Assembly (NCBI GenBank): GCA_014695325.1
Contig: JACJNZ010000037.1
Location: forward strand, 1 to 64,000
Source: Cyanobacteria bacterium FACHB-502
GTDB taxonomy: Bacteria > Cyanobacteriota > Cyanobacteriia > Elainellales > Elainellaceae
Direction: 5' to 3'
DNA length: 64,000 bases
The notes under the pieces were generated by a model, which made no database searches, was not told the DNA's origin, and saw only the letters and a program-made list of their open reading frames with translations. Position numbers and translations under genes: made by a program. Below, one piece after another: positions 4,507 through 49,295 of the stretch (positions are counted from its first letter, which is position 1; each line of letters begins with the position of its first letter).

Positions 4507-7500
4507 CTAGGAAAGATAGGCTTGAAGCTGCTGCGCTAGAACCTGCACGTGGGGCAGTTTAAGCATCGATAAATGATTGCCCGGAACAGAATGCACCTGA
4601 ACTCGATCGCATAATTGACTCCAGCCCAGTGTGGGATCAGAACTGCCGTAGTCCGAGGGATTCGTCGCTTTGAAGAGGGTTACAGAGCCAGGATAGAACT
4701 GCGGCATATAGCGATAAGCTGCCTGGCTGTTCGCATAAAAAATTCGCATCAGCGGCACGATCGCCGATTCATCTTGGAGCCGGAGCCGCGCATCGGGCAT
4801 CAGGCGCGTAATTGCAGACCATTGCCAGCGCGAATACCAGGATTTCCAGCGTTGCGATTGGGGCAAAGCATTCGGCAGGGTATTCAGGACAGGAAATCGA
4901 TTAGTGACGATCGCGCCATAGTCTAACAAGAACGGCAGCGTAGACCAGAGCGCAGTTTTCAGCAAAAACTTGAGGCTCTGTACCAGAGAGGGCTGCTGAT
5001 GGGCAAGGGGGGCGGGCGTATCGAGAATTGCTAACAGCGCAACGGTTTCACCTGCTTGGCTAAGCTGCTGCGCCATCTCGAAGGCAACCAGCCCACCAAA
5101 AGACCATCCGCCCAGAAAATAGGGTCCGTGAGGCTGAACGGCTCGCATCGCTGTAATGTAATAGGCTGCCATCGCCTCGATCCGGTTAAACGGCAGATGT
5201 TTTCCGTCTAATCCGAGCGGCTGAAGCCCATAAAAACTGCGATTCACTGCTGAACTAGTTTCTAAAAGCTGCGCCAGTTCTAGATAGGGAAACACCACGC
5301 CAAATATCGGATGCACACAGAAAAAGGGCGATCGCGTAACGCTCCCAGGACGATATCGATTTCCCTCAACGGTTAGGGGAACTAGCGGCGATCGGGCTTT
5401 TGCAGAATTACTATTGATAATTTGATCAGTTAGTCGATCGTCATTCGATCGCGGAACAATTTCTAAATTAGATTTAACAGCCTCAGATTTAACAGCCTCA
5501 GATTTAACAGCCTCAGATTTAACAGCCTCAGATACAACTGATTGATCGAGCCGTGAATATTGATAGTTTGACGACAAGGATACCAGCGTTGATGACTGAG
5601 CCAATCTCTCTGTCTTTGTTCGGAGTGTGTCTGCTCGGGCTGTGTCTGTTCGGGCTATGTCTGTTTGAGCTGTGTCTGTTTGAAAATCGCTTTCTGACCG
5701 CTTCGATCGCTGCCATCGATAAACCGATCGATCCAGACGCCCAATTGGCGGAGACTGCATGAGAGTGCTATCGCGAAGTCTGTCAATCGCTGGAGCAAGT
5801 TGGGCGATCGTGGGAGTTTCAAAGACCCGGCGGAGCGGGAGTTCTACCTCAAACCGATCGCGAATCCGCGAAGTCATCTGGGTTGCCAGCAGCGAATGCC
5901 CACCCAGTTCAAAAAAGCTGTCGTGAATGTGGATTTGCTGAAGCCGCAGCAGCTCTTTCCAAATGTCGATCAGGGCGAGTTCGGTAGGAGTTTGGCTTGC
6001 TTCATTGGCGAGAAGATTTGGGCTTGGAGCCGATTCAAGCGATTGCCAGTCGAATTCATTCTGTTCGAGCAGGGCAGCGCGATCGATCTTGCCGTTGGGG
6101 GTGAGGGGAAGGGTTTCGAGCGGCACAAAGGCAGTGGGAATCATGTAATCAGGTAGGGCTTGTCCCAGAAAAGCGCGAAGTTCAGGAATAAGCTGCCGGG
6201 CAACCTGAGACTGAAGCGGACTATTGGTATAGCGATGCCAGGATGAATTCTGGGACAAATCCTGAGATGAATTATTCTGCTGAATTGTGCGTGAATGAAT
6301 CCGTGAATAAATTGGTGAATTGAGCGGTGAATGAGTCGCAAAATTAACTTCCGAGGCAATGCCATTTCTAATTTCATTCTTGATGTCATTTCTAATTTCA
6401 TTCCGAATCAAAACAACATCATAGGTTCCGGCTTGGGAATCGCTCGACCAGCTTATTTCAACCTGATAAGGCAAAACCTTTTCTAGATCCCACCAATCTT
6501 GTGGATCAATCGCAGTTTTAACAGAATTCTGTAGCTTTTCCCGAAATTTTCCTACTGTTTTAGGTAATGCTTTACTTGATAGCCATTCAGCCGTTTGTAC
6601 AGCATTATCAACACGATCGTTGGCAATATTCCTTACCCCAAACAGATCAGGCTGATGCTCAAGCAAGTATCTTTGCGTATCGCTGACGGTTATCTTTTGA
6701 GTTTTCCAGTCTATCCATTGCATTTGCTGCAAAGGTGATCCGAAGCAGTTCTTCTTTTGGAAAAATTGGAATTCGTTCTCAGATAAATCATGCTGACCGA
6801 TGTGCAGCAACACGTTATAGCGAAACTGTGTCATTTCGTTATGGCTGCGACCACGCGCAAGACGAATCTGTACCCGATGAATCCTGGGAAACGCATCGCG
6901 CAGGGCATGAAAAAAGGCAGGATCGATCGCCAGCTCTGATTCTTCAAACTGCGATCGTTCAACCTGTTGGCGAAGCTGAGTTCGTTCTGTAGTTTCATCT
7001 GCCTGAGACAAACCGACCCAGGCATGAAAAGCCTTCAGCAGCGGCAGGCTTCGCACATCGCCCAGAAACACTGTGCCGCCCGGACGCACTGCCTCGATCG
7101 CCCCTGCAATGACCTGCATTAAGTAATCCACATCAGGAAAATATTGCACCACCGAATTGAGAATCACGACATCAAACGCAGACGATGCAACGCCCTCAAA
7201 ATCCGCTGCCGATCGATGCAATAATTTCACCTGAGACAATCCTCGATCATTCACCTGCCGCTGCACCGTCTCCAGCGAAACCGTCGAGAAATCGATGCCC
7301 CAGTAAGCCTCGCAGTGCGGCGCAATTTGAAAGAGCAGTAGCCCTGTGCCGCAACCAATTTCTAGCACTTGTTTAGGATGAAGAGCGAGAATTTGCTGCA
7401 CGCGATCGTCTACCCATTCGCGCATCTGGGCTGCCGGAATTGGCTCTCCGGTGTAGCTGCTGTTCCAGCCTGTGATGTTGAATGCCGGATCAGCCGGACG

Positions 7501-10500
7501 ATCAGGCGATCGATAGGTCTGGTTGTAGAGCGTCTGCCAGTGCTGGATTTGCTGGGCTTGAAGTAAGCCTGGTGTCGATTGTGTGCTGCCAGAATTGGAG
7601 TCGCCAGCGTTAGAAATCAAGGGACGAGTCAGACTGAAATAGGCAAGCAGCCGCTTGGCGTGGGAGGCTTCGCCCGTTGCTAAAACGATCGCCTCCTGAA
7701 CTGCCGGATGACGTTGCAGCGCAGTTTCAATCTCGCCCGGTTCGACCCGAAATCCGCGAATTTTAATTTGATCGTCCGATCGTCCACAAAATTCTAAATT
7801 GCCATCTGCCCGATAGCGCACCCGATCACCCGTGCGATAAAGTCTCGCCCCCGAACTCGACAGACTGGCATCAAACGGATTGGCATCAAACGGACTGGAA
7901 ATAAACCGGTTCGCCAGTTCAGGACGATTCAAATAGCCTCGTGCAACGCCTGCCCCGCCGATGTAGAGTTCGCCCACCACGCCGATCGGCACAGGCTGAA
8001 GCGCACCATCCAGCACGTACACCTGCATATTCGCCACCGGACGACCAATCAGCGGTGCATCACCGGGACACAGTTCGGCAACCGTTGCCCAAATCGTAGT
8101 TTCTGTGGGTCCGTAGGCATTGAAGAAGCGGCGATTGGCTGCCCACCGATCGATCACCGGACGGGGACAGGCTTCGCCTCCGGTAATCAGCGTTTGCAGC
8201 GCAGGCAGATCTGCAGACGGCAGCACCGCCAACACCGCCGGAGTGAGCAGCGCGTGGGTAATTGCATGATCCTGCAAAAACCTGACCAGAGCAGCTCCGG
8301 GCAACTGAACAGACTGCGGCGGAATGTAGAGCGTCCCCCCTGAACCGATCGCCAGCGCAATCTCAAACACTGACGCATCAAAGCTAAGCGAGCTGAACTG
8401 AAGCACCCGAATTTTGCTGGATGAATCAGCAGGTAAATCAAAAGCTTGACGCTGTGCTGCCACCACATTGCACAGCCCGCGATGGGTAATTAGCACTCCT
8501 TTCGGCGTTCCAGTCGAACCGGAAGTATAAATCACGTACGCCAGCGAATCCTGGGTAAAAAAGGGAGAATTGCCCCCTAAATCTTCCAACGTTGGAGAAC
8601 TTTGAGCGTCAGAATCATCAAGCTCGGTTCCTTCCAGATCGGTTCCTTCCAGAATTGAGGGGTTAAAGGGACGGCTGAGATTTGAATTCAGCACTGAAAC
8701 TTTAACTTTTTCATTCACCGCAAGCGGCTGATCGAGACAGATGATTTGCGCCTGCGATCGCGGCAAGGTTTCCCGTAGCCAGGATTGCGTCAGCAGAACG
8801 TTCATTTGTGTATCGATCAAGATAAACTCAATGCGATCGGTGGGATAGCTGGGGTCGATCGGCACATAGGCTGCCCCTGTTTTGAGAATGCCAAGAATGC
8901 CGATGATCAAGTCAGCCGATCGATCGACACACAATCCGACTAAATCATTAGGCTGTGCTCCAATTTGTTTGAGCGTATTCGCTAAGCGATCGGCTCGATC
9001 ATTCAATTCAGCGTAACTGAGGGATTCCGATTCGGTGACTAAAGCAATTCTTTCAGGAAACTGATTGGCCTGTCTTTCAAATAAATGATGAAAACCGAAA
9101 TGATAAAAACTGCGATCGTTTAGAAATTCGGTTGCCGTTTGATTCCACTTCACCACAAGCTGCTGATGTTCGGCAGGGGTGAGCAATGGCAGGTCTGACA
9201 GCCGTGCGTCGGGATTGGCAACAATACCATGCAACAGGGTTTGAAAATGTTCGACAAATCGGTGAATTGTGGCGCGATCGAAGAGGTCGGTGCTGTAGGA
9301 AATAAAGCCGCTTAAGCCTGCCTCAGACTGCCACAGGCTGCTTAACCCGTGCGACGGCTGCCACAGATGCACCTCCAGATCAAAGCGAGTTGTCTGCGGC
9401 TCCAGCGGCACAGGTTCCAGGCGAACTCCGGGTAATTCCAACGGCTGCATCGGCGCATTTTGCAGCGCAAAGGCAACCTGAAACAGGGGATTTCCGCTCA
9501 AATCTCGCTCTGGGTCAAGCTCCTCGACCAGCTTTTCAAACGGCAAGTCCTGATGCTGATACGCCTCTAACGCCACATTTCGCACCCGCCCCAGCAATTC
9601 TCGAAACGTGGGATTGCCCGACAAGTCCGATCGCATCACCAGACTGTTCACAAAAAAGCCAATTAACTCCTCGAATTCGCTGCGGTGACGGTTGGCAATC
9701 GGTGAGCCGATCGCAATATCGGTTTGTCCGGTGTAGCAGTGCAATAACGTTTGAAACGCTGCCAGCAGGGTCATAAACAAAGACACTCCTTCCTGCTGAC
9801 AGAGTGCCTCGATCGCCCCGGTCAAAGTCGGAGAAAAGCGAAGGGGAAAGGTTGCGCCCCGATAGGTCTGCATCGCAGGACGCGGACGGTCAATCGGTAA
9901 ATCTAGCCGTGAAACGTCCTGGAGCTGCTTGCGCCAGTAAGCCAACTGATTCTCCAACACTTCGCCCTGAAGCCACTGCCGCTGCCAGCAGGCAAAGTCT
10001 GCATATTGAATGGGTAATGGAGCAAGGGCTGCCGATCGTCCTTGAATGCCGGCTTGATAAAGCTCAGCCAACTCCCGAATCAGCACACCCAGCGACCAGC
10101 CATCTGCCACGATATGATGCAGCGTTAACAGCAAAATCGCCTCCGACTCGTCAAATTGCAGCAGCGTCACCCGCATCGGTAAATCGGTACTTAGATTAAA
10201 GGGACGCTGGGCTTCGGCGGTGATGAATTGTTGCAGGATATGTTCTCTATCGCTTCGCAGTTTTTTCAGGAAAGCATCGCTGGGGGCAATTGTTTGCATT
10301 GCAGTTTTCTGCAAGGACGATCGCAAATCAACGACAGGAATTGTAATTCTGGCTTCTGGTTCAATCACCTGCACAGGTTCACGATTTGCGGCGGTAAAAG
10401 TCGTTCGCAGAGCAGCATGACGACGGACTATCTCGTTAAACGATCGCTCCAGCACAGAGCAATTGAGCGATCCGGTTAGCCGAATCGCTGCAGGCACATT

Positions 10501-10896
10501 GTAAAAAGGATTATCAGGCGCAATTTGATATAGAAACCATAATCGCTGCTGAGCAAACGACAAGGGAAATACTGTTTCTGAAGAATTAAGTGGAATAGGC
10601 TGGGATAGGGTTTGCGGAACACGATTTTGAGAATCGGGTTGAAAGTCCGGTTGAAAGCCTGGTTGAAAGCCTGGCTGAGAATCTGGCTGTAGATTATGCT
10701 GTAGAAAATCGATAATCTCTGCTTTGCAATCGATTAACTGCTGCCTCAGTTCAGAAGTTAAAACCCCTGCTGGAGCGTTGCAGCGGAGACGCGGCGATAA
10801 AGCCAAACCCTCCGAAATAGGCGATTCCACAACCGCTAACTGAACATCTAGACGTTGCAGCTCTGCCAAAAATTCGGCGATCGAACGATGGCTCAT
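4507..10896 (-). CDS. NRPS: TubC dock - C - A with inserted N-methyltransferase - T - TE (terminal module)
   Basis: 2129-residue second and final module of a dimodular non-ribosomal peptide synthetase. Order: TubC-type docking domain (1-70); short Gln/Pro repeat linker; condensation domain (about 110-550, active site HHIVADG at 260-266); adenylation domain (about 570-1090, A3 loop YTSGSTGTPKG near 790, NAYGPTETTIW); methyltransferase inserted after the A8 motif (SAM-binding EIGCGTG near 1177, preceded by GWNSSYTGEPIP); end of A with LTPNGKID; thiolation domain (GGHSLL, Ser1668 carries phosphopantetheine); Ser/Val/Lys repeats; thioesterase (GWSFGG, Ser1932). By hand alignment with GrsA the specificity residues read DAFLIGAIWK, which I cannot assign with confidence, though a hydrophobic residue is likely. 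The methyltransferase position implies N-methylation of this residue. ATG overlaps the stop of the preceding NRPS by four bases (ATGA), so the two are translationally coupled. TE at the end implies hydrolysis or cyclisation of the product. Confidence 0.95.
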   Translation of the reverse strand: MSHRSIAEFLAELQRLDVQLAVVESPISEGLALSPRLRCNAPAGVLTSELRQQLIDCKAEIIDFLQHNLQPDSQPGFQPGFQPDFQPDSQNRVPQTLSQPIPLNSSETVFPLSFAQQRLWFLYQIAPDNPFYNVPAAIRLTGSLNCSVLERSFNEIVRRHAALRTTFTAANREPVQVIEPEARITIPVVDLRSSLQKTAMQTIAPSDAFLKKLRSDREHILQQFITAEAQRPFNLSTDLPMRVTLLQFDESEAILLLTLHHIVADGWSLGVLIRELAELYQAGIQGRSAALAPLPIQYADFACWQRQWLQGEVLENQLAYWRKQLQDVSRLDLPIDRPRPAMQTYRGATFPLRFSPTLTGAIEALCQQEGVSLFMTLLAAFQTLLHCYTGQTDIAIGSPIANRHRSEFEELIGFFVNSLVMRSDLSGNPTFRELLGRVRNVALEAYQHQDLPFEKLVEELDPERDLSGNPLFQVAFALQNAPMQPLELPGVRLEPVPLEPQTTRFDLEVHLWQPSHGLSSLWQSEAGLSGFISYSTDLFDRATIHRFVEHFQTLLHGIVANPDARLSDLPLLTPAEHQQLVVKWNQTATEFLNDRSFYHFGFHHLFERQANQFPERIALVTESESLSYAELNDRADRLANTLKQIGAQPNDLVGLCVDRSADLIIGILGILKTGAAYVPIDPSYPTDRIEFILIDTQMNVLLTQSWLRETLPRSQAQIICLDQPLAVNEKVKVSVLNSNLSRPFNPSILEGTDLEGTELDDSDAQSSPTLEDLGGNSPFFTQDSLAYVIYTSGSTGTPKGVLITHRGLCNVVAAQRQAFDLPADSSSKIRVLQFSSLSFDASVFEIALAIGSGGTLYIPPQSVQLPGAALVRFLQDHAITHALLTPAVLAVLPSADLPALQTLITGGEACPRPVIDRWAANRRFFNAYGPTETTIWATVAELCPGDAPLIGRPVANMQVYVLDGALQPVPIGVVGELYIGGAGVARGYLNRPELANRFISSPFDANPFDASLSSSGARLYRTGDRVRYRADGNLEFCGRSDDQIKIRGFRVEPGEIETALQRHPAVQEAIVLATGEASHAKRLLAYFSLTRPLISNAGDSNSGSTQSTPGLLQAQQIQHWQTLYNQTYRSPDRPADPAFNITGWNSSYTGEPIPAAQMREWVDDRVQQILALHPKQVLEIGCGTGLLLFQIAPHCEAYWGIDFSTVSLETVQRQVNDRGLSQVKLLHRSAADFEGVASSAFDVVILNSVVQYFPDVDYLMQVIAGAIEAVRPGGTVFLGDVRSLPLLKAFHAWVGLSQADETTERTQLRQQVERSQFEESELAIDPAFFHALRDAFPRIHRVQIRLARGRSHNEMTQFRYNVLLHIGQHDLSENEFQFFQKKNCFGSPLQQMQWIDWKTQKITVSDTQRYLLEHQPDLFGVRNIANDRVDNAVQTAEWLSSKALPKTVGKFREKLQNSVKTAIDPQDWWDLEKVLPYQVEISWSSDSQAGTYDVVLIRNEIRNDIKNEIRNGIASEVNFATHSPLNSPIYSRIHSRTIQQNNSSQDLSQNSSWHRYTNSPLQSQVARQLIPELRAFLGQALPDYMIPTAFVPLETLPLTPNGKIDRAALLEQNEFDWQSLESAPSPNLLANEASQTPTELALIDIWKELLRLQQIHIHDSFFELGGHSLLATQMTSRIRDRFEVELPLRRVFETPTIAQLAPAIDRLRDSTLMQSPPIGRLDRSVYRWQRSKRSESDFQTDTAQTDIARTDTARADTLRTKTERLAQSSTLVSLSSNYQYSRLDQSVVSEAVKSEAVKSEAVKSEAVKSNLEIVPRSNDDRLTDQIINSNSAKARSPLVPLTVEGNRYRPGSVTRSPFFCVHPIFGVVFPYLELAQLLETSSAVNRSFYGLQPLGLDGKHLPFNRIEAMAAYYITAMRAVQPHGPYFLGGWSFGGLVAFEMAQQLSQAGETVALLAILDTPAPLAHQQPSLVQSLKFLLKTALWSTLPFLLDYGAIVTNRFPVLNTLPNALPQSQRWKSWYSRWQWSAITRLMPDARLRLQDESAIVPLMRIFYANSQAAYRYMPQFYPGSVTLFKATNPSDYGSSDPTLGWSQLCDRVQVHSVPGNHLSMLKLPHVQVLAQQLQAYLS
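5471..5530 (-). repeat. Four perfect 15-base tandem repeats inside the NRPS gene
   Basis: The unit gatttaacagcctca occurs four times without change, encoding (SEAVK)x4 in the linker between the thiolation and thioesterase domains. In-frame repeat number changes here would only alter linker length. Confidence 0.95.
8569..8606 (-). repeat. 38-base dispersed palindromic repeat, copy inside NRPS adenylation domain
   Basis: The sequence begins attgccccctaaatc and ends ggagaactttgag, with the perfect palindrome ccaacgttgg in the middle. It matches the sequence at 47624-47661 at 34 of 38 positions. Here it encodes QSSPTLEDLGGNSP just before the A3 (P-loop) motif, in a segment that looks like an extra insertion relative to usual adenylation domains. 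Confidence 0.85.
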
Positions 10897-24519: not shown

Positions 24520-24607
24520 ATCGATAGAATCGTGTGTCACGAACTAGATTCATCACAATAATTATCGATAGAATTTTGTGTCCCGAACCAGATTTATCAC
24601 AATAATT
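24520..24607. repeat. Two imperfect 44-base tandem repeats upstream of the peroxidase gene
   Basis: Copy one (24520-24563) begins atcgatagaatcgtgtgtca and copy two (24564-24607) begins atcgatagaattttgtgtcc; both end atcacaataatt. They lie 115-205 bases upstream of the peroxidase start and could be paired regulatory sites or a duplicated scrap. Confidence 0.85.
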
Positions 24608-28705: not shown

Positions 28706-29293
28706 TGTGTGCGTGTGTTTTCTAAATTGAAAATTTGACGAACCGTTGATCAGGATTTTAGGTTGATCAGGGTTGGGATCGATGATTGCCTGCAAGCGTT
28801 ATCCAGGGACACCGTTGCTTGTTAACGACTGCGGGGAGAATTTCGTGACTGAAGAAATTAAGAAACCCTTTTCCACATTTACGGCAACATAAGCCATTGT
28901 AAAGTGTTGTGACTTAAAAGTGTGGTGTTGTAGACGCAGAAACACATCCTCCTATAGGTGACAGACAGGCTGAAGGCAAACCAACTCCTAAACAAACTTC
29001 TATTGTGCCCCAAAGCTGGAACTATCCTGCTGCTCAGCAATTCCTTTAAATCGTCTAAGTTTCGGTATTAATGGAAACCAGTATTACTGAAAATAATTCG
29101 CTCTCCTCGCCTCCCAATTTTGGGAAGAATTAATTAACGTTCAGGTTTCAAAGTCCCCGGTATTAGGAATCTACCAGTATTGGGAATTTAAGAGGCGATG
29201 TAGAAGTCAGATCAGCAGTAGTCGTATATTCATCCGTTCCACTAACTTGCACTCATTCCAGCTTGTCTTCAGGTTTAGCTCTAGAACAGCCTC
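28706..29293. other. Gene-free stretch between divergent EF-G and GUN4-WD40 genes
   Basis: About 590 bases that must carry both divergent promoters. The short phrase ccagtatt recurs (near 29072 and 29173), and ggtatta occurs near 29065 and 29159, but no longer repeat or gene is supported. Confidence 0.4.
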
Positions 29294-31285
29294 ATGAATC
29301 GATCCCTCTTTGCTTTCCTTTTGTTTGGTACAACTCTGGTTTCCAGTCTTGGTCGCTTCAGCACCCCGTCAATACAGATTTCTCTTGCTCAAACGCTTGC
29401 TCAAACTCCACCGCTCTCCTATCTAACTCAATCTGCTCCGGTAGACTTCAGCACCCTTCGATCGCAGCTTCGGTCTCAAAACTGGCAGGCTGCGGATGCT
29501 GAAACTCGCCGTATTCTCCAGACATGGGTGCATCCCAACGGAGATGTCTTCAGTTCACCGCTTGCCAGCAATATTCCGCCTGAAATTCTGCAAACCCTCG
29601 ATCGCCTCTGGATAGAAGCCAGCAACGGGCGGTTTGGGTTCAGCGTTCAGCGGCGAATTTGGGAGGAAGCCCAATCCCAGCATCCTAACAATACCGACAC
29701 GGCTGCTAAGGCCTTTGGCGATCGAGTCGGCTGGACTCGCCCGACCCCCAACCCAGAAAACTTCGTCTCACCCGACTGGCTCACAGAACCAGAGCTAAAT
29801 TACTCAAAGGAAGCTCCCGCAGGTCATCTACCCTGGGCAGGCATTGACTGGGAGCGAATTGATGCCATGCTGAATGCTCAAAGCTGTGGAAGCTGCATGA
29901 TTGATGCGATATATCTTCAAGGGGAACGCTTTAATCGCTATTTGCCCGTCCTCTTCAACTGGCTTACCACCGCCCTGGAATCTCCTTTACCAAGAGCGGG
30001 CTCCTGGCAGCAGGCAAGCCTTGCCTATTCGATCGATCTGAGGACGCTTTACGCCAACAGTAATCCAAATAATTCTTGTCCGGTCAATGAACTGGCAGAG
30101 GCAATCAGCCCCGATAGCACCATTCTAGCGATCAGCAGCTACAGCTATGAGCGATCGTGTGGCGGAAACCCGAACCAGAACCGGAACAACAGTACGCTGG
30201 CAATCTGGAACGCCCAGCGCGGCAATCGGATTGTTACCCTGCTACGGGGACAGGCGACTGAATCTTTCTCCTTTACAGGGCAGGCTCAGGAACCGCCGAC
30301 TGAAGCCAATCGAATTGTGGGAGATGTTGCCAATGCGATCGCATTTACCCCAGACAGTCGCCTGATTGCCGCCGGACTCTCAAACGGTACAGTGCGGCTC
30401 TGGACAACAGATAAAGGAGAAGCAGTGCGGACGTTTACCGGACACCAATACGCGGTGAGGGCGATCGCCATTAGCAAAGACGGTCAGTTGCTTGTTAGTG
30501 CCAGTGCCGACCAGACAATCAAGCTCTGGAATCTGAAAACAGGTCAACTCCTCCGCACGATTCGCCTTAATCCCTCAGACGGCATTGCTCATACTGTACT
30601 GATCAGCCCGGACGGTCAACGGCTGGCAACGGCAACACATCGCAACACGCTACAGCTCTGGAACACTCAAACCGGACAGATCATTCGCACCTTTACTCAG
30701 GCAGCTACTCAGGCAGCCGATCGACCCCCTGAACTCCCGATTGCCTTCAGCCCTGATGGACAAATTTTGGCAACGGCGGATCGCGATCGCTCTGTTAAGC
30801 TCTGGAATGCCGCTACCGGAGCACGGATGAAAACGCTGAGTAGCCACACAGAAGATATTCAGCATCTCGCCTTCAGCCCAGATGGCACATTGCTTGCCAG
30901 CACGGACGCCAAGAAAGCCCATCTCTGGAACCTGCAAACCTATCAGTCAGTGCAGAGTCTTGATTTAGTGCAGTCGGCGGGACATCCCGTGATGCCGAAC
31001 AATTTGGCAGAGGTGTCTTTTAGTCCAGATGGGAAAGTCCTTGCGACCAGCACGCTGCTGCTGCCGTTGATTCAAAGCGAACCCATTCCTCAGCAGGGCA
31101 TAACGCTCTGGGAAGTCGCAACTGGGCATCCGCTCAAGCAGATTCATGAAGTCGCCCAGTTCCAATTTAGTCCCAATGGGCAGTTTTTCATGGCAAACGG
31201 TCAGAGCGTGCAAATCTGGCAGCCTTATCGCAGTCTGATTAGAAATGCGATGCAAAGCAGTTTTCTCATGGGGCGATCGAACTAA
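29294..31285 (+). CDS. Exported-looking GUN4-WD40 fusion protein
   Basis: 663 residues. A signal-peptide-like N-terminus (MNRSLFAFLLFGTTLVSSLG, possible cleavage near residue 35) is followed by a GUN4 domain (about 50-215): LRSQNWQAADAETRRIL, LQTLDRLWIEASNGRFGFSV, RRIWEEAQS and FGDRVGWTRP. The C-terminal two thirds are about seven WD40 repeats, e.g. AFTPDSRLIAAGLSNGTVRL, AISKDGQLLVSASADQTIKL and AFSPDGQILATADRDRSVKL, which should make a beta-propeller. Free GUN4 binds protoporphyrin IX and Mg-protoporphyrin and stimulates Mg-chelatase inside the cell; fusion to a secretion signal and a propeller points to another role, perhaps tetrapyrrole or protein binding outside the cytoplasm. A cysteine-rich insert (SCGSCMID) lies near residue 200. 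It converges with the dioxygenase gene downstream. Whether the signal really works is unproven. Confidence 0.85.
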   Translation: MNRSLFAFLLFGTTLVSSLGRFSTPSIQISLAQTLAQTPPLSYLTQSAPVDFSTLRSQLRSQNWQAADAETRRILQTWVHPNGDVFSSPLASNIPPEILQTLDRLWIEASNGRFGFSVQRRIWEEAQSQHPNNTDTAAKAFGDRVGWTRPTPNPENFVSPDWLTEPELNYSKEAPAGHLPWAGIDWERIDAMLNAQSCGSCMIDAIYLQGERFNRYLPVLFNWLTTALESPLPRAGSWQQASLAYSIDLRTLYANSNPNNSCPVNELAEAISPDSTILAISSYSYERSCGGNPNQNRNNSTLAIWNAQRGNRIVTLLRGQATESFSFTGQAQEPPTEANRIVGDVANAIAFTPDSRLIAAGLSNGTVRLWTTDKGEAVRTFTGHQYAVRAIAISKDGQLLVSASADQTIKLWNLKTGQLLRTIRLNPSDGIAHTVLISPDGQRLATATHRNTLQLWNTQTGQIIRTFTQAATQAADRPPELPIAFSPDGQILATADRDRSVKLWNAATGARMKTLSSHTEDIQHLAFSPDGTLLASTDAKKAHLWNLQTYQSVQSLDLVQSAGHPVMPNNLAEVSFSPDGKVLATSTLLLPLIQSEPIPQQGITLWEVATGHPLKQIHEVAQFQFSPNGQFFMANGQSVQIWQPYRSLIRNAMQSSFLMGRSN

Positions 31286-46711: not shown

Positions 46712-48529
46712 TCACCGCAGCAATCGTCTAGCGGTACGGCTGATCCAATCCACGCCAACCGTCATCAAGACGAAACAGCCCAGCGTCACAATTAAACTGC
46801 TGTAGTTAAAACTGCTCAACTGTTCGCTAACCAGCCGCCCCAACCCACCTGCTCCCACCAGCCCAACAATTACGGTTTCTCGCGTGCAGACCTCCCAGCG
46901 ATACAGAATGTAGGCAAGAAAACGGGTCAAGGTAAGCGGCAGCATTCCATACAAAAAGACGATCGCTGCTGGAGTTCCCTGAGCTTTGAGCGCAACGATC
47001 GGACGTTGATCCAGGTTTTCATTTACTTCTGCCATCAGCCGTCCTAAAATGCCCCAGTTGTGAATGCCCAGGGCGATCGCTCCGGGCAAAATTCCGGGAA
47101 ACAGGATAAATAAGGAAATCAGTGCCCAGATCGGGGCGGGGATCGATCGAAACAGCAGCAACAGCAGCCGAGACGAAATCAGCAGCAGCCAGCTTGATCC
47201 CTGCGCGATCCTACTTGTGCTAAAGGGTTGCAGCAGTCCGCCCGGCAGGAAAATGTTGCGAGCCGAGGGGAAAGACAGCACAATCCCGCCCAATCCTGCT
47301 AAGGTAATCGCGAGAACCGACATGGCGATCGTTTCCAGGCAGAGGCGAATCAATTGCGGAAATTGAGCGAGTTGAAAGTTAGGCGGGAAGGTTGTTCGCC
47401 CCACTTCTCCTAACAGCATCACGGTACGAGGCGACCAGAGTTTGCTGTAGTCTGCCCCGACAAACCAGAAACAAAAGGGGATGAGGACGATCGCCCCCAG
47501 TCCTGCCAGGGTGAGGCTGGGCTGCCACCTGGTTTGGAACAGGAACCTGGAAATTCTTGAGGGGAAGCTGTTTTCGTGGGGGGGCTGAAGTTGGGGGTAA
47601 ATGATCAATCCTCTAACGCTTGCATTGCCCCCTAAATCCCCCAAGGCTGGAGAACTTTGAGACGGAAGCTGCCTGGCTCGGCGGCGTAGATTGAGATCGA
47701 GGCGCGTGGGTGCTCCGAGGCGATGGCGCAGCAGGGCACTGGCTAGATCGACCAAACTGTTGAGCATGATCAGCGCGTAAAACAGCGTCCAAAGCTGCTC
47801 GTAGCGGAGCGATTGCAAACTCAACAAAATTTGATATCCCACTCCTCCGGCTCCGATGATCCCCAGAACGGCAGCCGATCGCAGTGAACATTCAAAGCGA
47901 TAAAAGCTATAGGAAATCAGATCGAGGGCAGCCTGGGGAAGCAGCGTGTAGAAGAAAGCAGTCAGGGGCAGCACACCGCTATTCAGCAGGGCATTGAGCG
48001 GTTCGCGGGGGGTTTCGTCCAGCGTTTCGGAAAAGACTTTAGAGACGATCGCGCTGTAGGGAACAACGATCGCCACAATGCCCACCAAGGGATCAAGCCC
48101 AAACAGATTAACGAAAAATAGTCCCCAGATCAGCTCATGAATTGCACGCGGAACCAAGAGGATTACCCGGAGTCCCTGTCCAAAAAATTGCCCCGCTGCC
48201 CAACGCGGAAAGACAGACTGCCACCAAACTTCTGAGATCAATACGCCGCCCAGAAGTCCCACAGTGACACTGAGAACTGTGCCGCAGACGGCAAAGGCAA
48301 GCGTGACTAGACTGGCATTCCAGGTAAGCTGCAAGAATTCTGGACTTAGATCGGGGTGAATACTGGCGCGAAAAAATTGTCCGAGCTGAGGCAGCCCCCG
48401 AAAGTTCAGCAAATCCTGCTGGAAGAGTCCCGCCATGTAGCCGGAAAAGCCGATCGCCCCCAGCATCAGCAGGAACCAGCGCGTTTGGGCAGTCCACAGC
48501 GAGGGGCGCGGCATAAACCGAGAAGACAT
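46712..48529 (-). CDS. phnE: Fused double permease of a phosphonate/selenate-type ABC importer
   Basis: 605 residues containing two complete PhnE-like permease halves joined in one chain. The first half has the ATPase-contact loop ETLDETPREPLNALLNSG (about residue 170) and the second AEVNENLDQRPIVALKAQG (about 510), each surrounded by five or six hydrophobic segments. Usually one such protein forms a homodimer; here the dimer is covalent. The linker (about 285-340) includes QSSPALGDLGGNAS, encoded by a dispersed repeat (47624-47661). ATG 48527-48529 is preceded by GAGGAA; the frame extends to 48574 but that would overlap the ATPase gene. It follows the ATPase gene by ten bases in one operon. 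Substrate is unclear: phosphonate, phosphite or selenate. Confidence 0.9.
   Translation of the reverse strand: MSSRFMPRPSLWTAQTRWFLLMLGAIGFSGYMAGLFQQDLLNFRGLPQLGQFFRASIHPDLSPEFLQLTWNASLVTLAFAVCGTVLSVTVGLLGGVLISEVWWQSVFPRWAAGQFFGQGLRVILLVPRAIHELIWGLFFVNLFGLDPLVGIVAIVVPYSAIVSKVFSETLDETPREPLNALLNSGVLPLTAFFYTLLPQAALDLISYSFYRFECSLRSAAVLGIIGAGGVGYQILLSLQSLRYEQLWTLFYALIMLNSLVDLASALLRHRLGAPTRLDLNLRRRARQLPSQSSPALGDLGGNASVRGLIIYPQLQPPHENSFPSRISRFLFQTRWQPSLTLAGLGAIVLIPFCFWFVGADYSKLWSPRTVMLLGEVGRTTFPPNFQLAQFPQLIRLCLETIAMSVLAITLAGLGGIVLSFPSARNIFLPGGLLQPFSTSRIAQGSSWLLLISSRLLLLLFRSIPAPIWALISLFILFPGILPGAIALGIHNWGILGRLMAEVNENLDQRPIVALKAQGTPAAIVFLYGMLPLTLTRFLAYILYRWEVCTRETVIVGLVGAGGLGRLVSEQLSSFNYSSLIVTLGCFVLMTVGVDWISRTARRLLR
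47624..47661 (-). repeat. 38-base dispersed repeat, copy inside permease linker
   Basis: Begins attgccccctaaatc and ends ggagaactttgag; 34 of 38 bases match 8569-8606 in the NRPS gene. In both genes it is on the same strand relative to coding and in the same frame, giving QSSPxLxDLGGN. Confidence 0.85.
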
Positions 48530-48539
48530 CAGCAGTTCC

Positions 48540-49295
48540 TCATCGCTGGTAAAGGCTGGAAATGAGCGCATCACTTACCTGATGAACAGGCAGATCAAAG
48601 AAAACCTGTCCGGCGCGCAGTCCAATAATGCGATCGAAGTGGCTTTTTGCCAGCTCGATCGAATGAATGCTGACCACCAGCGTTTTACCGTCGATCGCTG
48701 CCAAGCCACAAAGCAGATTCATAATCTCGCGGCTGAGCTGGGGATCAAGACTGGCGACGGGTTCATCTGCCAGGATTGCGATCGGGTCTTGCACCAGCAC
48801 CCGGGCAATGGCAACGCGCTGCTGCTGTCCGCCAGAGAGAGAATCAGTGCGATCGTAGAGCTTCTCTGGAATGCCGACCCGATGCAGAGCCTTGGCTGCC
48901 GTCTCCAAATCTTGCGGATAAATCAACGACAGAGCCGCCTTCCAGAACGACCATCTGCCCAAGTGACCCGCGTTGACGTTGTGAACGACGGCGAGATGAT
49001 TCACCAGATGAAACTGCTGATACACCGTGCCGATCTGCCGCTGAACTCGCCGCATTTTCGCCGCCGAAAGAGAATTCAAAGGCTGTCCCAGTGCCCAGAC
49101 TTCCCCTTGCGTGGGGAGCAGTGTGCCGTTGAGTAGCCGCAGCAGTGTGCTCTTCCCGGCTCCACTCGACCCGACTAACGCCACCCGCTCTCCTGAATTA
49201 ATATGCAGATTTAAACCAGTCAGAGCTACGAACTGCCCAAACCACTGCGTGACCTGCCGCAGTTCAAAAATCGGGTCAAAAAGGGGAAGTGCCAC
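48540..49295 (-). CDS. phnC: ABC transporter ATP-binding protein, PhnC type
   Basis: 251 residues. Walker A GSSGAGKST, Q-loop TVYQQFHLV, signature LSGGQQQRVAIARVLVQDP, Walker B AILADEPVASLD and the switch His in VVSIHSIELA are all present. FHLVNHLAVVHNVNAGHLGR is typical of PhnC ATPases. The start codon is GTG (49293-49295). It lies between the binding-protein gene (gap 37 bases) and the fused permease (gap 10 bases), so the three genes form one operon. It would power import through the double permease. Confidence 0.92.
   Translation of the reverse strand: MALPLFDPIFELRQVTQWFGQFVALTGLNLHINSGERVALVGSSGAGKSTLLRLLNGTLLPTQGEVWALGQPLNSLSAAKMRRVQRQIGTVYQQFHLVNHLAVVHNVNAGHLGRWSFWKAALSLIYPQDLETAAKALHRVGIPEKLYDRTDSLSGGQQQRVAIARVLVQDPIAILADEPVASLDPQLSREIMNLLCGLAAIDGKTLVVSIHSIELAKSHFDRIIGLRAGQVFFDLPVHQVSDALISSLYQR

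Follow-up and report, generated by a model that had tools for sequence, protein, structure and literature searches.

A two-hairpin repeat of one cyanobacterial class, mostly intergenic and partly MITE-borne, with rare gene copies mainly in one reading frame

The short repeat found twice in the 64-kb stretch of DNA analysed here (the window) is a real repeat of a known type: a two-hairpin cyanobacterial element, part of which is borne by an IS1-type MITE, and whose rare copies in genes are read mainly in one frame. We think it probable (roughly 0.76) that it represents an old hairpin family of one cyanobacterial class, mostly intergenic and with a MITE subset, whose rare gene copies are frame-keeping survivors.

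The first-pass annotation of the window had reported a 38-base repeat at 8569-8606 and 47624-47661, inside genes for an NRPS and an ABC permease. These positions were exact, and the two segments match without gaps at 34 of 38 bases (89%). Both copies lie on the minus strand, oriented like their host genes and in one common frame, and both are read as QSSPxLxDLGGN, as had been claimed; the translated copies are QSSPTLEDLGGN (NRPS, 2129 aa) and QSSPALGDLGGN (permease, 620 aa). The hairpin cores and their host genes are listed in Table 1. In the NRPS, the 11-residue segment is followed by 9 residues and then by LAYVIYTSGSTG, which we take to be the A3 motif, in agreement with the annotated position. 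In the permease, the segment comprises residues 306-316; its placement in the linker between the two halves held on the N-terminal side, as the segment lies C-terminal of the first (128-285) of the two BPD_transp_1 stretches counted. The palindrome ccaacgttgg, which had been named as the core in one copy, is indeed present in copy 1 only, and the feature common to both copies is an imperfect stem, TCCCCCA/TGGGGGA.

Table 1. Features of the repeat in the window and loci of a nested palindrome in a congener
Feature	Position	Strand	Model score	Remarks
P2 hairpin, copy 1 (34-nt core of the 38-mer)	8572..8605	-	49.3 bits (covariance model)	Within the NRPS adenylation domain, in frame and shortly before A3; translated as QSSPTLEDLGG
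Degenerate first hairpin (P1) of the NRPS copy	8622..8662	-		Upstream of P2; limits by eye
P2 hairpin, copy 2	47627..47660	-	52.1 bits (covariance model)	In frame in the permease linker; encodes QSSPALGDLGG
Third, decayed P2-like copy	29148..29196	+	23.1 bits, E 0.00028	Enlarged loop
Host gene 1, NRPS	4507..10896	-		Condensation, AMP-binding, methyltransferase, PP-binding and thioesterase domains
Host gene 2, ABC permease	46712..48574	-		Two BPD_transp_1 stretches
CCGCTCCTGAGGAGCGAGT loci in congener G026				L241, L377, L378, L379, L384, L387, L400, L431, L437, L438, L444

Three findings go beyond the first-pass annotation, namely a degenerate P1 hairpin in the NRPS, a third decayed copy and a genome-wide family. 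The NRPS P1, compared with composite copies, is decayed, has an internal duplication and encodes LEGTDLEGTE. No P1 was seen beside the window permease copy, whereas the permease copy of a congener (genome G026) has one. The third copy lies between an ORF ending at 28795 on the minus strand and an ORF starting at 29294 on the plus strand, about 100 bases upstream of the latter. Note that the NRPS gene also has 15-nt tandem repeats at 5470-5544 (AGATTTAACAGCCTC) and 5610-5669 (CTGTGTCTGTTCGGG), between the PP-binding and thioesterase domains, and that a 44-nt unit forms a tandem pair (89% identity) between ORFs at 24520-24607 of the window.

In a structural model of the permease (mean pLDDT 80.2; 18 sequences), residues 291-349, which include the element, had pLDDT values below 50, which the scarcity of aligned sequences there may partly cause. 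Inserts lie in segments of variable length in all three genes that were aligned with many homologues (permease, NRPS and MutS2). The likeliest effect of an insert on the protein would be that of a tolerated flexible linker.

Both window segments are rich in S, P and G, as would be expected if they were a chance similarity of low-complexity linker codons. This explanation, which we regard as next to impossible, was refuted by the searches. The hairpin pattern, with up to 3 mismatches, occurred at 2 places in the window and in none of 100 shuffles. In the own genome (6.6 Mb in 100 contigs), the pattern of the first-pass annotation gave 21 places at up to 3 mismatches, the consensus TCAAAGTCCCCCANNNTTGGGGGATTTAGGGGGC gave 73 at the same threshold (0 for the reversed-pattern control), and a covariance model built on the 34-nt hairpin gave at least 148 matches at E 0.1 or less among 150 scored candidates. 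The genome thus holds many further copies, and the proposal of a repeated palindromic family was borne out. Model matches were found in 35 of 36 genomes of the host's family, own genome included, with counts from 0 to at least 150. In a sample of the phylum, searched with stricter filters, 44 of 194 genomes were positive, own genome included, and all positives belonged to one class. The repeat was also present in 14 plasmid records from six cyanobacterial genera. As a separate observation, one genome of the family (G028, C113:12292-12559) has a row of four P2 copies, all with high scores, at a spacing of 78 nt.

Subsequent counts refer to 150 copies of the own genome and 100 of the congener. 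The own-genome set excludes reverse-strand partial self-matches, matches under 26 bits and the loop-expanded 57-nt copy L115:3641; the third window copy was kept despite scoring below 26 bits, a second copy inside MutS2 (L167:2953) was excluded for that reason, and the weak places C80:54090, C34:1002717 and C49:219180 lie outside the set. The congener set was drawn from 140 matches by excluding duplicate places, 4-34 matches (P1-like), loop-expanded copies (of which L241 was retained), and a few matches that were weak or short (e.g., L434:1638, L425:1736, L418:1653 and L419:1420); about a dozen weak matches lie outside it. Note that model searches overlook decayed copies in genes, as the own RimI copy was found only via its orthologue.

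The description of the 38-mer as a small mobile palindrome had to be modified, since many copies form a two-hairpin unit, in which the 38-mer makes up the hairpin on the 3' side (P2), and some are part of an IS1-type MITE (see below). P2 is often preceded by a hairpin P1, GCCCCCCTAGCCCCCCAAxxTTGGGGGGAACC, which is approximately P2 inverted, and the two-hairpin unit is enclosed by an outer stem, GCCCCC/GGGGGC. By a crude pattern, P1 was present in 43 of 150 own copies and 26 of 100 congener copies. When most of one copy was folded as single-stranded DNA, a branched two-hairpin form was obtained with a z value of -2.67, and 3 of 200 shuffles folded equally well. Covariation in the P2 stem was weak, as the paired percentage was matched by 84 and the covariation score by 18 of 500 shuffles, and it was therefore rejected as proof of a conserved RNA.

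The core is enclosed by GGCGTTGCTGAAT and ATTCAGCAACGCC in 34 of the 250 copies analysed, with a total length of 136-209 nt. A target duplication of at least 8 bases was found for 27 of these 34 (25 of 8 bases, one of 9 and one of 11) with one mismatch allowed, as compared with 5 of 5000 random pairs in the control. Furthermore, the terminal repeats are common to the MITE copies and to IS1 transposase ORFs (PF03400), adjoining the same end in loci L235 and L236. By its terminal repeats and target duplications, this subset of copies is an IS1-family MITE. On the other hand, 216 of the 250 copies were without one or both IS1-type ends (2 mismatches allowed), and both ends were found on none of 24 in-gene copies. 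Alternative ends, GTTTGAGAAGT and its complement, were present on both sides of 8 of 150 own copies, 0 of 100 congener copies and 0 of 3000 random places; the remaining copies have other ends or no clear ends. In our reading, an IS1-family transposase would move the MITE copies, and some further route may have moved the others.

Like REPs, the copies are strongly under-represented in genes and in divergent gaps. Among the 150 own copies, with genes called by a simple coding-score caller, 9 were inside genes, 3 overlapped a gene end, 4 were at locus edges and 134 were intergenic; the intergenic copies comprised 77 in unidirectional, 42 in convergent and 15 in divergent gaps. The baseline is a single 64-kb window; its coding fraction was 0.75, and divergent gaps accounted for 43% of the intergenic bases. 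In the congener, 15 of 100 copies were inside genes, 52 were in unidirectional, 22 in convergent and 8 in divergent gaps (8 of 82 intergenic). With a stricter open-frame criterion, 8 of 150 own and 14 of 100 congener copies were inside genes versus 1816 of 4000 random window positions; note that in these counts gene-breaking copies would be scored as intergenic and decayed in-gene copies are overlooked. Intergenic copies had a median distance of 83 nt from the 3' end of a neighbouring gene.

This preference for convergent and unidirectional gaps close to gene 3' ends, together with the strong hairpins and the z value given above, would also fit a functional RNA or DNA structure at gene ends (3'-end protection, attenuation or terminator-like), with the copies in genes as by-products. 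We consider this very unlikely, as the consensus is without a T-run after the stem, copy numbers vary among genomes of the host's family from none to at least 150, and the MITE copies bear target duplications. A known RNA family was likewise rejected, as in the four scanned loci no Rfam family scored above the cut-off, with one sub-threshold microRNA match only.

The inverted hairpin pair and the intergenic, non-divergent placement also suit a REPIN, that is, two inverted REP hairpins moved by a RAYT (REP-associated tyrosine transposase), in which case solitary copies would be decayed halves. The own genome has four Y1_Tnp genes, and 30 of its 150 copies have GTAG no more than 10 nt from P2 on the 3' side. 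However, of 100 congener copies, one had this tag and 45 had GCAG, CGTC was present in none of either set, and on the 5' side the counts were 2 of 150 and 1 of 100. Moreover, the 1.5-kb flanks of the four Y1_Tnp genes contained a single P2 match, about 1.2 kb away, and a subset of copies is carried by the IS1-type MITE instead. A RAYT-driven REPIN was rejected on the ground that no repeat copies directly flank these genes, and the REPIN reading as a whole appears unlikely.

We next consider the frame of the gene copies. Three of the six frames of the hairpin are usually stop-free (F1 in 236, R3 in 220 and F2 in 207 of 250 copies); F1 is translated as SKSPxxGGFRG and F2 as QSPPxLGDLGG. The 18 distinct in-gene sites of the two genomes comprised 16 in F2, 2 in R3 and none in F1. 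These sites were counted by manual reading, with sites common to both species counted once; L142, at the C-terminal end of TilS, is within the 18, the open-frame copies L365 and L407:2161 are outside, and F1-open copies at gene edges (e.g., L117, L422, L427 and L440) were excluded from the inside-gene count. By the stricter criterion, 15 of 17 sites were in F2 (binomial p 1.8e-6 or 5.3e-5, depending on the null). The copy length was equal to 34 modulo 3 in all 22 in-gene copies of the stricter criterion versus 188 of 228 others (Fisher p 0.03).

Five of the 14 plasmid records were examined; they were chosen in part for having the match within a gene, and they serve as examples only. Copies in genes were in F2 in Pseudanabaena, Picosynechococcus and Allocoleopsis, and the Gloeocapsa one, in an NRPS gene, was in R3. 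In Synechocystis, the copy was upstream of a gene, not inside it. Note that on plasmid pGLO7428.01 of Gloeocapsa sp. PCC 7428 (L446), the P2 copy runs antisense to this other NRPS gene, in an open frame (R3), apparently near the condensation-adenylation junction of the gene.

The first-pass annotation had proposed that the palindrome spreads into coding DNA without breaking frames, similar in idea to the Rickettsia palindromic elements. The in-frame inserts and the uniform length modulo 3 of the in-gene copies agree with the intact frames, but a preference for coding DNA was not found, with 9 of 150 own copies inside genes, and the Rickettsia comparison is useful as an analogy for the in-gene minority and not for the family as a whole. 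A true cyanobacterial analogue, namely a small palindrome with an adaptation for entering coding DNA in frame and creating new protein segments, would account for the use of mostly one frame, for sites common to two species, and for 4 of the 5 plasmid records with a copy in an annotated gene (three in F2, one in R3). However, the placement in both genomes is the opposite of a coding preference, stop codons and survival can explain the frame use, and the plasmid records were selected as described above; we therefore judge such an adaptation quite unlikely, and a coding-seeking element is unsupported. Instead, the repeat looks MITE/REP-like and mainly intergenic, its in-gene copies being survivors. 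In that reading, which we prefer, selection would remove most insertions into genes, and the surviving ones would have a total length divisible by three and a Pro/Gly/Ser-rich, flexible translation (RPPSPPxLGGTEP...QSPPxLGDLGG) that folded domains may tolerate.

To trace the history of the gene sites, orthologous genes were compared across species. Of the two outcomes that the first-pass annotation had named as refuting its reading (no further copies in the genome, or the segment at one and the same place in all distant homologues of both proteins), neither occurred. The permease insert is also present in the congener and, by eye, absent from 14 of 14 rows from other genera of the host's family. 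The NRPS insert is likewise in the congener, and 0 of 19 other-genus rows show it by eye, one of the rows being incomplete and not all being strict orthologues. The MutS2 insert was found in the own genome and the congener and was absent from 28 other rows, one of them incomplete; the congener copy is a perfect consensus whereas the own copy is decayed, and independent insertion at the MutS2 linker is therefore possible. Copies at matching places in both species were also found in GH38 mannosidase, RluA and CbiA (R3 in both) and in RimI. On the other hand, the PabB site is compact (empty) in the own genome and holds an in-frame insert of 210 nt in the congener, and a PKS linker differs in length by 207 nt between the two. 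The own orthologues of congener MenE (L364), GcvT-like L407 and L413 had no recognisable copy, and that of NDH-like L358 had an ambiguous one. The flanks of gene sites were compared exactly for target duplications, and the linkers differ between species. As some sites are common to both species and others differ, gene insertions predate the species split at some sites, and the two species differ at others. Most likely, the window NRPS and permease insertions predate the split from the congener and have since decayed at a tolerated site.

The congener hairpins themselves contain a second palindrome, CCGCTCCTGAGGAGCGAGT, with 12 entries in 364 kb of congener loci, one of which is the reverse reading of another. 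All 11 places (Table 1) were inside P1 or P2 hairpin loops by eye (an automatic test flagged 10 entries), and three of them are within genes, namely the NRPS (L241), GH38 (L400) and RluA (L431). Reversed-motif controls gave 0, and 855 kb of own-genome loci gave 3 weak matches, none in a loop. Measured by eye, the second palindrome adds some 24 nt to the loop, a length divisible by three. Since the own NRPS is without the loop insert, this nesting step was probably later than the species split. A small-palindrome hierarchy, in which hairpin loops are landing sites and elements grow loop by loop without a classic transposase, is conceivable, though we regard it as doubtful; if true, such growth would repeatedly lengthen protein linkers in frame-keeping steps.

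These loci form a natural series from intergenic hairpin repeat to translated protein, in which some sites are occupied and others empty, one frame is preferred, and several sites are common to two species. They also carry a warning for annotation, as segments of the QSPPxLGDLGG type in cyanobacterial proteins can be repeat inserts and not motifs. In addition, the nested palindromes and the occurrence of the core with IS1-type or other ends make the movement of elements below 40 bases testable in culturable cyanobacteria.

Text searches of the literature for gggggatttaggggg and ccccctaaatccccc found neither, and title searches found no title describing the repeat, most subscription papers being outside the scope of both. 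Among known systems, the small dispersed repeats (SDRs) of Nostoc and its relatives (Elhai et al. 2008) are reportedly very small repeated cyanobacterial palindromes of 21-27 nt from one cyanobacterial subgroup, which occur within minitransposons and also one inside another. By this description, our repeat resembles the SDRs in that small palindromes are nested in one another (in the congener loops) and in a minitransposon-type MITE, and it differs in being a 34-nt hairpin within a two-hairpin unit that is found in many families of a class. It resembles IS1-family MITEs in being short, in sharing GGCGTTGCTGAAT ends with IS1-transposase ORFs and in having target duplications of mostly 8 bases; unlike them, it has both ends in only 34 of 250 copies, the core also occurring with other ends or alone.

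REPs, according to PMC3733652, are located chiefly in gaps of the convergent and unidirectional kinds, although some copies, RPE-4 and RPE-6 among them, are intragenic, and REPINs, according to PMC3116915, are inverted REP pairs linked to RAYTs. The likeness to these consists of an inverted hairpin pair that is intergenic, mostly in convergent or unidirectional gaps, and in some cases intragenic. The differences are that our repeat is without the constant GTAG or CGTC tag of the families so named, flanks no RAYT gene, and is carried in part by an IS1-type MITE. Cyanobacteria are not mentioned in the accessible part of PMC1590033. Finally, RPEs are described in PMC10969869 as about 150 bp long and inserted in frame in genes. 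By the descriptions in that paper and PMC3733652, the cyanobacterial repeat is like RPEs in being palindromic and in frame within unrelated genes (18 sites in two genomes). RPEs are mainly in genes, whereas the cyanobacterial repeat is mostly intergenic, with 9 of 150 and 15 of 100 copies inside genes.
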